From positions 1-40,858 of the forward strand of contig CALUTG010000010.1 in the NCBI GenBank assembly GCA_944323615.1: DNA of 40,858 nucleotides, read 5' to 3'. This DNA is from Candidatus Gastranaerophilales bacterium. GTDB lineage: Bacteria > Cyanobacteriota > Vampirovibrionia > Gastranaerophilales > Gastranaerophilaceae. A program made the position numbers and the translations under genes. The notes under the pieces were generated by a model. That model was not told where the DNA came from and searched no databases. It saw nothing but the letters and a program-made list of their open reading frames with translations. This document shows positions 25,246 to 29,923 of the stretch, in pieces (the stretch's first letter is position 1; each line of letters begins with the position of its first letter).

Positions 25246-26724
25246 TTAAACCCCTGCTAAATTTTTAATAGCTTTTTTAGCTCTGTTGAGTGAGTGTTCT
25301 TTACCTAAAATTGCTAGAGTTGCTGTCATATCAGCTCCGCAGAGTCTGCCTGTAACGGCGGCTCTTATTGCCCACATAGTGAACTTAGGTTTGTAGCCTT
25401 TTTCTTTAAAATCCGCTCTGAATTTTTCCAGTTTTTCATGCAGATTTTCTTCCGTCCATTCCCAGGTTTCGCCTTGTTCAACAAAAGCTTTGAGTACTTC
25501 TTGAGATAAATCAGTATCAATATTTTCAGCGGCTTTTTCGTCTATTTCAACGTTATCACCGCCAAAGAAATAAGCTACAGCATCAGTTATATCTGATAAC
25601 AGAGTTAACGGTTCATAAGTAATCTCTATCATTCTTGTGTATTGAGCATCAGTAAGTTCTGACAGATCATATTTTGTAAGATACTTTTTGAGTCTTTCTT
25701 TTAAATCTTCTATCGGAAGCATTTTAATATAATGGCTGTTCATCCATTTTAATTTATCGTATTCAAAAATTGAGTTGGATGAAGAAATTTCTCCGATTCT
25801 GAAGTCTTGAGCGATTTCATCAACTGTTTTAATTTCCTGACCGTCAGAAGGTGACCAGCCTAAAAGTGCAACAAAGTTAACGAGTGCATCTGTTAAGTAA
25901 CCTTGTTCAACAAAGTCTGAAACTGCTGTTGCGCCATGTCTTTTTGAAAGTTTGCTTCTGTCCGGTGCAAGAATCATGCCTAAGTGTCCGAATCTCGGAA
26001 CTTCAAATCCTAAAGCTTCAAAAATCAGGATTTGTTTATAAGTATTTGAAATATGGTCTTCCCCTCTTATAACGTGTGTAATTTTCATTAAAGCGTCATC
26101 AATTACAACAGCGTAATTATAAGTAGGAGCCCCGTTAGATTTCATAATAACAAAGTCGCCTATCAGGTTTGTATCGACGTGAAGTTTTCCTTTCACAAGA
26201 TCAACAAATTCAAGAATTGATGAATCATGAAAAGCTTTTTGTGCTTTTGAAACATTAAATCTGATTGCAGGTTTTCTGCCTTCAGCTCTTAATTTTGCTT
26301 TTTCTTCTTCTGTTAAGTTTTCGCATTTTTTTGTATAGACATAAGCCTTTTTATTTTTAGCAGCTTCTTCTTTTTCTGCTTCTAATTCTTCCGGAGTACA
26401 GAAGCATTCGTATGCAAAACCTTTATCAAGAAGTTCCTGAATATATTTAGGATAGATATCAAATCTTTCGGACTGGGTATAAGGGCCGTAAGGTCCTCCT
26501 ACGTCAGGTCCTTCATCCCAATTCAAGCCGAGAGCTTTAAGAGAGTCAAAAATATTTTTAACATATTCCTGGCTTGTTCTTTCGGCATCAGTGTCTTCTA
26601 TTCTTAAAATAAATTTTCCGTTATTTTTCTTCGCGAATAAATAATTAAATAAAGCTGTCCTTGCCGTTCCGATGTGGAGGTTTCCGCTCGGGGAAGGTGC
26701 GATTCTTACTCTTACTTCACTCAT
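25246..26724 (-). CDS. gltX: glutamate-tRNA ligase
   Basis: Class I aminoacyl-tRNA synthetase that charges tRNA-Glu (and tRNA-Gln where GatCAB converts it). ATG at 26724 (MSEVRVRIAPSPSG) is chosen over one 24 codons upstream: AAAGGG precedes it and the family begins here. At 492 residues it is full length. The HIGH motif is PSPSGNLHIGTARTALFNYLF, KMSKS is SKLSKRHGAT near 250, and VIRGEDHISNT is the conserved pre-KMSKS block. The zinc-site Cys in ECFCTP and a later Cys are visible near 105-130. The C-terminal anticodon-binding helical domain ends WAIRAAVTGRLCGADM. A single tRNA-Glu gene is at 20469-20544. Confidence 0.97.
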   Translation of the reverse strand: MSEVRVRIAPSPSGNLHIGTARTALFNYLFAKKNNGKFILRIEDTDAERTSQEYVKNIFDSLKALGLNWDEGPDVGGPYGPYTQSERFDIYPKYIQELLDKGFAYECFCTPEELEAEKEEAAKNKKAYVYTKKCENLTEEEKAKLRAEGRKPAIRFNVSKAQKAFHDSSILEFVDLVKGKLHVDTNLIGDFVIMKSNGAPTYNYAVVIDDALMKITHVIRGEDHISNTYKQILIFEALGFEVPRFGHLGMILAPDRSKLSKRHGATAVSDFVEQGYLTDALVNFVALLGWSPSDGQEIKTVDEIAQDFRIGEISSSNSIFEYDKLKWMNSHYIKMLPIEDLKERLKKYLTKYDLSELTDAQYTRMIEITYEPLTLLSDITDAVAYFFGGDNVEIDEKAAENIDTDLSQEVLKAFVEQGETWEWTEENLHEKLEKFRADFKEKGYKPKFTMWAIRAAVTGRLCGADMTATLAILGKEHSLNRAKKAIKNLAGV

Positions 26725-26793
26725 AATAATCCCTTTCTTTGCAGGAAAATTATCCTGCAAAGTATCCCAAAAGTAAAGAGGCAGGGAACACAT

Positions 26794-27280
26794 CATTTTA
26801 CATAAAATGGAGAATAATTTATCGGGGCTGATGCCGCCCCGTACCCCGCACCATATTTCTTTCTTTTATTGTTTTACAACAGGCGGAGTAGTTTGTTAGT
26901 TAAGCCTACAAGCTTAATTTGCCCCCGATACAAAAAGAAAGAAATATGGAAAAGAAAGAAAAACAACGCACTGCTGCATTTTTCTACCGAAAAATGCCTG
27001 TAACCCCCTCTCCTTAGAGGAGAGGGGTAGGGTGAGGTGTCAACCGCGAGCGTGTGTCCGGAGGACACAATAGCGAGCGTGAGAGATTGTGTGAAGCACA
27101 ATTCCTACGATGCCCGAAGGGCATTAAAAACATTGCGGGTTTCTTTTTTCTTTTCGTACTTTTCTTTTTTTCTTTTCTTAGCAAAAAAGAAAAAAGAAAA
27201 GTACAATTAAGATTAAACACCGTTTCAATCCTGCCCGCAGGCGCGGGTAAATTAACACACCATTTTATGTAAAATGGTGT
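26794..27280. repeat. hairpin-dense repeat island with inverted ends (possible MITE-like element)
   Basis: No credible gene. The 17-mer CATTTTACATAAAATGG (26794-26810) has its reverse complement at about 27262-27278, itself inside an 11-bp-arm palindrome (27257-27280). Inside are many hairpins: CGGGGC/GCCCCG (26823-26841), 17-bp arms CCATATTTCTTTCTTTT (26851-26867) with its complement (26933-26949), CCCCTCTCCT/AGGAGAGGGG (27005-27027), TGTGTCC/GGACACA (27053-27069), ATTGTG/CACAAT (27086-27102), ATGCCC/GGGCAT (27110-27124), and 15-bp arms at 27156-27170 with 27190-27204. Base composition is patchy and GC-richer than its neighbours. It looks like an accumulation of mobile intergenic repeats between gltX and pcrA. 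Confidence 0.6.
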
Positions 27281-27285
27281 ATTTA

Positions 27286-27327
27286 ATGCACATTTAAAGA
27301 AATTTTAAAATTTCTTTAAATGTGCAT
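27286..27327. repeat. 42-base perfect palindrome over the pcrA stop codon
   Basis: Arms of 21 bases meet without a loop: ATGCACATTTAAAGAAATTTT followed by its exact complement. The pcrA stop (27305-27307 region) and its last six or so codons are inside. As RNA it forms a very stable AU-rich hairpin and may act as a terminator or 3'-end stabiliser for pcrA. Confidence 0.85.
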
Positions 27328-29836
27328 AGGCTGCATCCATGGCCTTTTTGCCGAGTTTGCCAAAATCTATCGTATACATAGTACTGTCGCCGATTTGGAT
27401 TACATCCGTGATATGCCCTACTCCGAGTTTTTCGTGAAAAACTCTTTCTCCGACATTAAAATAGTATTGAGTTGCAGTATCCTTCAATTCTTTTTCTTTT
27501 TCCGCAATTTCGGCTTTTTGAGCTTCTTCCTTTTTCCTTTCTTCAAGACGGCGCTTCATAACATTATCACGGAAGAAAGCTTCAATTTTTTCTTCCTCTT
27601 TTTGTTTATTAATCGGATTCTTCTTAATAATCATTCTGGCAGGAGATTTTTTTACAACATTAGTAGCTTTATTTACCCCCGGCGCTACAAAATTTGCACC
27701 AAACCCTGTAGTAGGTTTTACATACCCGTCAGATGTAAATGAACTCTTCTGTGAGTATCCGTCTTCGGAATATTTACCATCATTATCTGTATATTTACCC
27801 CTGCCCCTGCTCCAGTCTCTGTTCTCTTTTACAGACTGTACAGCACTTGCAAACGTACTTGAATGAGATCCTGTATATTCGGATTCTTCCTGTTCAACCA
27901 AATTTGAAGGAATTTCTTCCAAAAATCTGCTTGGTGAGTAATATTTGTATTCACCCCACATTTGACGGCGCTTTGCGGTAGTCAAATAAAGCTTCTGTTC
28001 GGCTCTTGTAACGCCAACGTACATCAATCTTCTTTCTTCTTCCAGTTCAGAAGTTATATTCATGGTTCTGGCTGACGGGAAAATACCCTCATCACATCCC
28101 GCTATATAGACTATCGGAAATTCCAGCCCTTTGGATGCGTGAAGGGTCATAAGAGTTACGTTGTTTGCAATCTCGTCCATTCCGTCTATATCCGAAACTA
28201 ATGACACCTGAGCGAGAAACTCCCCTAACGTATTATCAAGTTCTTCCGGCTCAAACTCATTGGCTACGTTAACAAGTTCCTGCAAGTTTTCAATTCTGGT
28301 CTCGTCTTCAGGCGTGTTTGAAATCTGCAGTTCTCTTAAGTATCCGCTCTTTTCAAGAACAAGGCTTAAAAATTCCGGCAAGTTGTAGTTTGGCTGTGCT
28401 TCCTGAAACTTCATTATAAGGTTTGAAAAATCTTTTAATTTAGAAGCCGTACCGGATTTAATAGTAGAAATATTATCCACATCAAGTATTGCGGCAAAAA
28501 GACTTATATCGTTTTCATCCGCATACTCTTGGAGATGCTTAAGAGTAGTTTCACCTATTGCGCGCTTAGGAACATTAATTATACGTCTCAAAGACTGGGA
28601 ATCATCAATGTTATGGATAAGTTTAAGATAAGCTATAGCATCTTTAATTTCTTTGCGGTCATAGAACTTAAGCCCGCCATAGATTCTGTATGGAATCCCT
28701 GCGGCTATAAGAGCTTCTTCCAGCGCTCTGGACTGAGCATTAGTTCTGTACAAAACAGCAAACTGATTATAGTTATCTGATGTTGAAGAAATAGAATTAA
28801 CTATATAGTTTGCCTCATCCGCTTCATCCTGAGCTTCATAGTATGTAATCTTTTCTCCGTCGCCTTTCTGTGAGTACAGAACCTTATCTACACGCTCTTC
28901 GTTATTCTGGATAATAGAATTTGCCGCATTAAGAATATTAGCGGTAGAACGGTAATTCTGCTCAAGTTTGACGATTTTTGCATTAGGAAAATCCTTCTGG
29001 AAGTTCATAATTATCCTAAAATCCGCACCTCGCCAGCTGTATATAGATTGGTCAACATCGCCTACAACACACAAAGATCTCTCTGGCGGAATATTCGGCT
29101 GCAGATTTGTGTAAAGCGCGTTCACAAGCTGATATTGCGCAAGGTTTGTGTCTTGATACTCATCTACCAGAATATGCTGGAACTTATCATAATACTTTTT
29201 ACGAACTTCTTTGTTTTGCTCCAATAATTTAACCGTCAAAAGAAGCATATCGTCAAAGTCTATGGCATTATTGTTATTCAAAGCATTCTCATAAGCTTCA
29301 TAAACTTTTGCTATCTGCTGGGATTTAAAGTCTCTTGCGTAAGTCGCAAACGAATAAGCATCCTGCATTTTGTTTTTTGAATTAGATATAACGGCTTTAA
29401 TTAGTTTTGGCTGATAGATTTTATCATCAAGGTTAAGTTTCTTTATAGCCTGCTTTATGACTGCAAGAGAGTCTGTTTCGTCATAAATAGTAAAGTTTTT
29501 ATCAAGTTTTTTACCTGATTGGAATGAGTAGTTTTCAATATCCTGTCTTAAAATACGTCCGCAGATACTGTGAAAAGTCCCTACCCACATATATTTAACC
29601 ACTCTGTCTCCAAGAATGGAAGCCAGCCTTTCTTTCATCTCACGGGCAGCTTTATTGGTAAATGTTACGGCAAGAATTTTCCCTGCAATAGCACCCTGCT
29701 GTATCATATAAGCTATTCTTGTTGTTAGAACTCTTGTTTTTCCGCTTCCTGCGCCTGCAAGAATCAAAAGCGCACCCTGTGTAGTTTTGGCAGCTTCAAG
29801 CTGTTCTTTGTTGAGATTTTCTAAGATATTTTCCAT
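27305..29836 (-). CDS. pcrA: ATP-dependent DNA helicase PcrA/UvrD
   Basis: SF1A 3'-5' helicase in nucleotide excision repair, replication restart and removal of recombination proteins. ATG at 29836 (MENILENLNKEQLEAA) is chosen over one 12 codons upstream, which has no ribosome binding site; AGGGGA precedes the chosen one. At 843 residues it is slightly long. Motifs in order: Q-motif LNKEQLEAA, Walker A GAGSGKT 28-34, TFTNKAAREM, motif II LVDEYQDTN, VGDVDQSIYSWRGAD, QNYRS, LMTLHASKGLEFPIVYI, and RRLMYVGVTRAE. A charged linker leads to a PcrA-type C-terminal Tudor-like domain (GERVFHEKLGVGHITDV), which binds RNA polymerase in relatives. The 3' end lies in a 42-base palindrome. Confidence 0.96.
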   Translation of the reverse strand: MENILENLNKEQLEAAKTTQGALLILAGAGSGKTRVLTTRIAYMIQQGAIAGKILAVTFTNKAAREMKERLASILGDRVVKYMWVGTFHSICGRILRQDIENYSFQSGKKLDKNFTIYDETDSLAVIKQAIKKLNLDDKIYQPKLIKAVISNSKNKMQDAYSFATYARDFKSQQIAKVYEAYENALNNNNAIDFDDMLLLTVKLLEQNKEVRKKYYDKFQHILVDEYQDTNLAQYQLVNALYTNLQPNIPPERSLCVVGDVDQSIYSWRGADFRIIMNFQKDFPNAKIVKLEQNYRSTANILNAANSIIQNNEERVDKVLYSQKGDGEKITYYEAQDEADEANYIVNSISSTSDNYNQFAVLYRTNAQSRALEEALIAAGIPYRIYGGLKFYDRKEIKDAIAYLKLIHNIDDSQSLRRIINVPKRAIGETTLKHLQEYADENDISLFAAILDVDNISTIKSGTASKLKDFSNLIMKFQEAQPNYNLPEFLSLVLEKSGYLRELQISNTPEDETRIENLQELVNVANEFEPEELDNTLGEFLAQVSLVSDIDGMDEIANNVTLMTLHASKGLEFPIVYIAGCDEGIFPSARTMNITSELEEERRLMYVGVTRAEQKLYLTTAKRRQMWGEYKYYSPSRFLEEIPSNLVEQEESEYTGSHSSTFASAVQSVKENRDWSRGRGKYTDNDGKYSEDGYSQKSSFTSDGYVKPTTGFGANFVAPGVNKATNVVKKSPARMIIKKNPINKQKEEEKIEAFFRDNVMKRRLEERKKEEAQKAEIAEKEKELKDTATQYYFNVGERVFHEKLGVGHITDVIQIGDSTMYTIDFGKLGKKAMDAAYAHLKKF

Positions 29837-29923
29837 TCCCCTATTCCCAAAAGCATAAATTTGTGGTATCATACACTAGCATACACAAAATAATTATTAT
29901 TTGCAATTGATAAAGGTGGTACG

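Follow-up and report, generated by a model that had tools for sequence, protein, structure and literature searches.

A hairpin-dense intergenic cassette beside pcrA in a Candidatus Gastranaerophilales genome, probably held between two palindromic inversion sites

Between the gltX and pcrA genes of a Candidatus Gastranaerophilales bacterium lies an intergenic island of about 490 bases that is crowded with hairpins and closed by inverted ends, which raises the question of what kind of element it is and what its ends do. The island was found in a window of 40,858 nucleotides (contig CALUTG010000010.1, assembly GCA_944323615.1), and a sequence-only reading of this window had proposed a non-autonomous mobile element or nested REP/ERIC-like insertions. 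Having compared its copies within the window's own genome (G000) and across related genomes, all of them draft assemblies, we think that the island is probably a mosaic cassette, non-coding and dense in hairpins, with an inversion site on either side. The names of the flanking genes used throughout (gltX, pcrA, infA, infB, uvrB, ispE, pflB, pflA, mrp, rpoC, queA, and serS) are by-eye readings.

Architecture of the island

The 17-base inverted ends reported by the sequence-only reading are present, with CATTTTACATAAAATGG at 26794-26810 and its complement within CCATTTTATGTAAAATGG from 27260; what had been overlooked is that each of these ends is palindromic in its own right, around a centre of 4 bases, CATTTTACATAAAATG within the left one occupying 26794-26809. 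The parts of the island and its neighbours are given in Table 1.

Table 1. Features of the hairpin cassette and its neighbouring genes in the window.
Feature	Position	Strand	Remarks
Whole hairpin cassette, both terminal palindromes included	26787-27283	.	In the window
Left terminal palindrome	26790-26813	+	Outer arm ACATCATTTT, centre ACAT at 26800-26803, inner arm AAAATGGAGA
Hairpin GGGGC-TGATGCC-GCCCC	26824-26840	+	Shared interior begins here
Hairpin with 17-base arms CCATATTTCTTTCTTTT / AAAAGAAAGAAATATGG	26851-26949	+	Arms 26851-26867/26933-26949
Hairpin GCATTTTTC-TACC-GAAAAATGC	26976-26997	+	
CCCCTCTCC...GGAGAGGGGTAGGGTGAGG piece	27005-27039	+	Own-genome BLAST matches to the piece alone
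Hairpin GTGTCC-GGA-GGACAC	27054-27068	+	
Hairpin ATGCCC-GAA-GGGCAT	27110-27124	+	
Long pyrimidine/purine hairpin, end GAAAAGTAC	27140-27204	+	15-base arms 27140-27154/27185-27199
Right terminal palindrome ACACCATTTT-ATGT-AAAATGGTGT	27257-27280	+	Core and centre are the reverse complement of the left
gltX neighbour	25249-26724	-	Start at 26724 conserved; named by eye
pcrA/uvrD-type helicase neighbour	27305-29872	-	Named by eye

A greedy hairpin scan (perfect arms of at least 8 bases, loops of 3-70) retained five hairpins with 122 paired bases in the island, compared with a mean of 0.87 hairpins and 15 paired bases (maximum 88) in 157 further stretches of the window, each 497 bases long and overlapping one another, none of which reached the island's 122. 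Once the shorter stems GGGGC/GCCCC, GTGTCC/GGACAC, and ATGCCC/GGGCAT are added, the inverted repeats number eight, in agreement with the at least seven counted earlier, and the two said to have arms of 15-17 bases were recovered with arms of 17 and 15; the loop of the former contains an insert common to the copy at C40. Folded as RNA, the minus strand gave z = -13.2, and none of 100 shuffles folded equally well. The base composition is patchy, as had been claimed, with GC of 0.31 to 0.58 in 100-base intervals fully within the island and 0.26 to 0.47 in those fully outside it (26300-27800), but the further claim that the island is GC-richer than its surroundings holds for about 26950-27149 only.

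No terminator-like sites were found in the island, and its three promoter-like sites are weak (1.6 expected), so that the switched promoter or gene cargo of an inverton was not seen. An Rfam search with three element loci gave 38 matches up to E = 1, none of them at the gathering score. The sub-threshold matches include n00280, a C. difficile sRNA in a helicase gene, which was matched inside pcrA (L030:2479-2575, L031:2494-2589, and L001:2693-2785; 49.7, 43, and 34.6 bits, where 65.2 are needed), probably reflecting pcrA coding sequence. Immediately beyond the cassette, at 27286-27327, a perfect 21-base palindrome spans the pcrA stop codon and is retained, slightly altered, in genomes G004, G010, G015, and G072.

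A dispersed family with a mosaic, covarying interior

BLAST with a 521-base island query returned 85 matches in the window's own genome and matches in 19 of the 37 genomes searched as relatives (own genome included), the strongest in G010, G004, and G015; the island is thus neither unique in its genome nor fixed at one place in all relatives. The core motif (at most two mismatches) occurs in 5 of 65 genomes of the genus, namely G000, G004, G010, G015, and G072, and the exact motif in 33 stretches from named genomes, 32 of Candidatus Gastranaerophilales and one of a bacterium from roe-deer rumen. Five more named loci outside the five element genomes (L216, L225, and L232-L234) have short core stretches only, with no flank matches.

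The interior is a string of hairpin modules, one of which, the CCCCTCTCC...GGAGAGGGG piece (CCCTCTCC), disperses alone: 22 of the 85 own-genome matches span query positions 200-268 only, and at least one of these (C6:48116) sits within another element copy. Given this separate dispersal, and given that copies vary by module inserts, we regard the element as a mosaic, and the nested, dispersed, multi-copy insertions proposed at the outset are borne out. Palindrome and interior are also separable, since the copies at C10 and C40 have 93% of their interiors in common and unlike palindromes; at the C40 locus, the palindromes of G010 and G015 have identical arms and the G015 interior differs. The proposed non-autonomous mobile element therefore stands as regards nesting and dispersal, but the classical picture is incomplete, with no target-site duplication seen and with ends, often locus-specific, that stay while the interior changes or flips, and the evidence points to inversion sites in its place.

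In the loci read (genes by eye), an element may precede a gene, follow one, or stand between two divergent genes. One locus of the window's genome (L014, C43:150-870) contains two cassette parts, inverted to each other, that have a single pair of ends in common, and at mrp-rpoC in G010 (C130, L174) a glycosyltransferase-like gene (by eye) occupies the position that a cassette has in other species.

Covariation of the stems was scored in 19 aligned copies, which remained of 46 element instances after 23 without a recognisable end and four more had been dropped. The structure comprised 49 pairs in six helices (909 cells, 99.3% of them paired); the CCCTCTCC and long pyrimidine/purine helices, which aligned poorly and left many cells unpaired (the long hairpin is misaligned in alignment A1), were excluded from the count, as were four long-range pairs. 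Double changes were seen at 9 pairs in 37 cells, compared with 5.4 and 9.7 in shuffles and with 0-4 pairs and 0-7 cells in slid structures; kinship of the copies inflates such counts, and the slid control preserves this kinship. Compensating changes fell in five of the six helices scored, while pair types beyond these showed no excess (20 versus 20.1 in shuffles). The copies show covariation at three stem positions of the hairpin with 17-base arms (TAT/ATA, ACA/TGT, AAG/CTT, and AAA/TTT), and one pair of GTGTCC-GGA-GGACAC occurs as UA, CG, AU, and GC; the GCATTTTTC-TACC-GAAAAATGC hairpin had no double changes in the 19 copies.

Palindromic ends with opposed centres

The window's ends read CATTTT[ACAT]AAAATG on the left and CATTTT[ATGT]AAAATG on the right, and are reverse complements of each other. 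With at most one mismatch, CATTTTAYRTAAAATG has 10, 4, 6, and 8 sites in G000, G004, G010, and G015 (counting one G010 site, on C65, of unread position), and the reversed-pattern control has none; the sites read are element ends, that on G010 C112 being placed by its neighbour gene alone. Elsewhere the palindromes are different, such as CAACACAAT-GTCT-ATTGTGTTG at C40 and ACAACATTTT-GGAT-AAAATGTTGT at C22, and at mrp-rpoC the arms vary by species yet remain palindromic, most poorly in G015. In length, the inverted end repeats fall within the 10-40 nt of invertons.

Centres were compared by script in 26 copies, a subset of the 67 loci considered below that was picked for having both ends; copies at contig edges, most composites of G072, and C17 and C53 of G000 do not belong to it. 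In 18 copies the two centres are reverse complements of each other, in one they are direct, in six they are neither, and one copy gave no pair; one of the six is a mis-pick (G015 C20) whose right end is inverted by eye. Reverse-complement centres hold also where the palindrome is locus-specific. At C58 in G000, the centres are direct, not inverted.

Orientation of copies between matched flanks

Flanks were compared at 67 loci with an interior score of at least 100, and both flanks were matched in at least two genomes at nine of them, the window's own locus not being one of the nine. The compared genomes, which are different species, carry the element in opposite orientations at five of the nine (uvrB-ispE, pflB-pflA, C6, C43b, and C58) and in the same orientation at four (C17, C43a, infB-pcrA, and mrp-rpoC), where C43a is composite in G000 and was oriented by its stronger part; at loci L139 and L191, both the orientation and the extents of the element were set by hand. 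At mrp, a G000 copy matched by a single flank is in the opposite orientation.

Two of the flips, C58 and C6, are clean and palindromic. At both, the outer arms remain with the flank while the inner arms and copy-specific sequence go with the element, and the copy-specific right-end sequence, present in both orientations, is absent at other loci (299 sequences scanned), which argues for inversion in place. C43b, which differs in orientation between G000 and G015, has inverted repeats for ends but no full palindromes, and uvrB-ispE and pflB-pflA, whose ends are degenerate or composite, are weaker cases. At uvrB-ispE in G010, moreover, the palindrome remains with the flank in its entirety, its inner arm too, which counts against inversion; the same site holds a lone imperfect palindrome in G004 and the element, with unlike interiors, in G000 and G015. 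G010 provides the flipped copy at three of the five opposite loci, both clean ones among them. Of two queA matches in G010 (C61 and C11), one is 100% identical to the G072 piece and the other 82%, and this metagenome-assembled genome may mix two species.

The neighbours of the element at pcrA also change. The order is infB-element-pcrA in G004, G010, and G015 and gltX-element-pcrA in the window; infB of G000 stands at a contig end inside an element, gltX adjoins infA in G004 and G010, and no infA was found in the G000 assembly at the search threshold. The change may be a rearrangement that took place at the element, or it may be a chimeric join. The 3' flank of pcrA bears the outer palindrome half in G000, G004, G015, and G072, and a degenerate one in G010. 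No empty site could be read among the 30 pcrA loci listed, since those from genomes other than the five with the element have different genes beside pcrA.

Related 28-base sites around promoter-like segments

A looser palindrome search of 12 genomes, whose reversed control also gave 0-3 hits in each, turned up two palindromes in G019 that flank non-repetitive DNA at a spacing of 164 bp, and a similar 28-base site is present in six species other than the cassette carriers (G019, G061, G062, G065, G075, and G077). Thirteen of the 21 loci read have a pair at 121-189 bp, with reverse-complement centres in 12 and direct centres in one; another, at the end of a contig, has two direct sites close together (47 bp), and seven have one site by pattern, including G077 C4, where the second site is an imperfect one. 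The two pairs with direct centres count against an inversion reading. In the sister species G077, the G019 segment lies the other way round between the same flanks (reverse-complement score 224, forward 51), and a TTCACA-16-TATAAT match (11/12) lies on opposite strands of the two; a third segment (L288) has a promoter-like match of like kind. As promoter-like matches are no more numerous in these segments than in shuffles, the weight of this evidence lies in how good the match is and in its being flipped, not in number.

The core AACATTTT-NNNN-AAAATGTT is common to the 28-base sites and to the ends that some cassettes have at uvrB and mrp, and the window's own ends have CATTTT-NNNN-AAAATG in common with these sites. 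The right 28-base site, followed by a T-rich stretch, scores as terminator-like too, so such palindromes may have another role. A FliD_N domain begins three of nine proteins taken beside the sites. Segments resembling invertible promoters were noted at L258:7489-7680, L279, L280, L285-L290, L293, L295, L296, and L298, some of them upstream of FliD-type or unknown proteins.

Recombinase and transposase genes

Serine recombinases (PF00239) occur in all five cassette genomes and in 38 of the 60 others; their types are unlike, with none common to the five, and they were rejected as the cassette enzyme. A small invertase of 182-212 aa (G000, G072, and G004) was likewise set aside, the inverted repeats near it being unlike the cassette palindromes. 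It has genes with alike MSDE... starts nearby, which in G072 and G004 lie on both sides of it together with an inverted repeat (58 bases in G072, 31 in G004); no such repeat was found in the G000 stretch. These Hin-like loci (L246:1400-2011, L247:1712-2347, and L248:847-1392, with two-sided MSDE... genes in L247 and L248) are a probable separate phase-variation locus. Two serine recombinase hits in G015, of 479 and 537 aa, are of another type. A crude motif scan of the collected loci showed no recombinase next to the sites.

The Y1 transposase family was matched in one of the five element genomes (G010) and in 35 of the 60 others, with no match in G000 (all drafts); not being associated with the elements, it led us to reject a REP/RAYT reading. 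No target-site duplication was seen at the element loci read: a TA duplication would fit many ends, not that of G072 C20, and is indistinguishable from the repeat. A search for autonomous relatives (end pattern with at most three mismatches, 65 genomes) listed same-contig pairs less than 0.75 kb apart, save where two element copies were involved.

Inversion sites and the alternatives

In the arrangement we favour, the palindromes at the two ends are built on the core CATTTT-NNNN-AAAATG, extended outwards by locus-specific sequence, and their asymmetric 4-base centres point towards one another. A putative site-specific recombinase would exchange strands at or near these centres, so that the inner halves would go with the cassette and the outer halves would remain with the flank. 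One recombinase family may serve both kinds of site, with inversion ongoing within populations and cassettes spreading by site exchange. The differences in arms between loci (CAACACAAT at C40) count against inversion, because a sequence-specific recombinase should not tolerate them. So do the direct centres at C58 in G000, the six copies with other centres, the four matched loci that show the same orientation, and the ends of C43b, which flips although they are not full palindromes.

Inverted terminal repeats and dispersal are also what a non-autonomous, MITE-like family would have, inserting at palindromes or TA with a transposase supplied in trans; the lone palindrome and the occupied sites at uvrB-ispE and the TA adjoining type-B ends speak for it as well, and opposite orientations would then be independent insertions at hot spots. 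Such insertions should not, however, produce the copy-specific right-end sequence that C58 and C6 carry in both orientations and that none of the other loci scanned has. The end palindromes are, moreover, inverted and not direct copies in 18 of 26 cases, the Y1 family is found in just one of five element genomes, and target-site duplications were not seen; we therefore hold a MITE-like family to be unlikely.

Less likely by far is a structured RNA or regulatory hairpin element, in which selection on the RNA hairpins would maintain the stems and the palindromic ends and movement would be incidental, by homologous recombination. Stem covariation and the fold (z = -13.2) are in its favour, whereas none of the three element loci matched an Rfam family at gathering level, the island lacks terminator-like sites, and placement relative to genes varies (upstream, downstream, or between divergent genes, by eye); homologous recombination of interiors cannot flip an element within its own two flanks. 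Hardly credible, finally, is an artefact in which short-read assemblers joined or flipped repeats and made the gltX-pcrA junction a chimera. G000 contigs C5, C13, C14, and C74 do end inside or beside an element, the order in G004, G010, and G015 is infB-element-pcrA, and infA was not found in the G000 assembly at the search threshold, but terminal repeats of about 25 bases are short relative to the usual assembly k-mers, and opposite orientations span several separate assemblies and recur between G019 and G077 at another kind of locus.

Relation to known systems

MITEs such as Correia elements have terminal inverted repeats, are free of genes, and occur in many copies; the cassette differs from them in that its ends vary by locus and no target-site duplication was seen. 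Invertons are intergenic segments with inverted repeats of 10-40 nt and variable orientation (PMC11892184). The elements described here are alike in their short inverted repeats and variable orientation, and the segments between 28-base sites are promoter-like too, whereas the cargo in the window is a mosaic of hairpins that is dispersed and has no good match to a promoter, held by palindromic sites with locus-specific arms. The text consulted on neisserial intergenic mosaic elements defines dRS3 as ATTCCC(N8)GGGAAT and relays a suggestion that a phage integrase recombines it, causing rearrangements (PMC3898611). A mosaic of repeat units and short palindromic repeats is common to both; the organism and the sequences are different, the ends here, CATTTT(N4)AAAATG, do not have the dRS3 form, and in-place flips of the units are not among the features that this text describes. 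REP/BIME sequences with RAYT are dispersed intergenic palindromes, also in composite arrays (PMC3733652, PMC2817692), while the palindromes here, about 24-30 bp long, enclose a cassette a few hundred bases in length, and four of the five element genomes gave no Y1 match. A search of the open-licence literature for intergenic or inverted repeats returned no publication on such repeats in Gastranaerophilales, and what it returned for Melainabacteria with phase variation concerns flagellins.

A wider reading, which we offer tentatively and think possible rather than likely, is a genome-wide inversion system in Gastranaerophilales, in which one type of palindromic site would flip promoters and also hold, flip, and exchange hairpin cassettes, reshuffling intergenic architecture in a shufflon-like manner and placing even infB or gltX beside pcrA. 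Within such a system, the covariation of arms by locus would suggest that sites are recognised by palindrome or hairpin shape over a fixed arm sequence. The inversion-cassette reading itself joins intergenic palindromic repeats and phase-variation invertons, which are usually treated apart; if it is right, some intergenic hairpin repeats are DNA-inversion cassettes, and why palindromes retain covarying arms becomes a testable question.

Variants of the ends were also noted in other genomes. A pair of cassette-like end sequences lies about 490 bases apart in G042 (C15:24987-25475), a genome without the core motif, and cassettes of G072 (L096, L100, L103, L106, and L118) have GTCATTCCGG...CCGGAATC or GTCACCCTGAACTT... 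palindromes on their left side, which resemble dRS3-like repeats.
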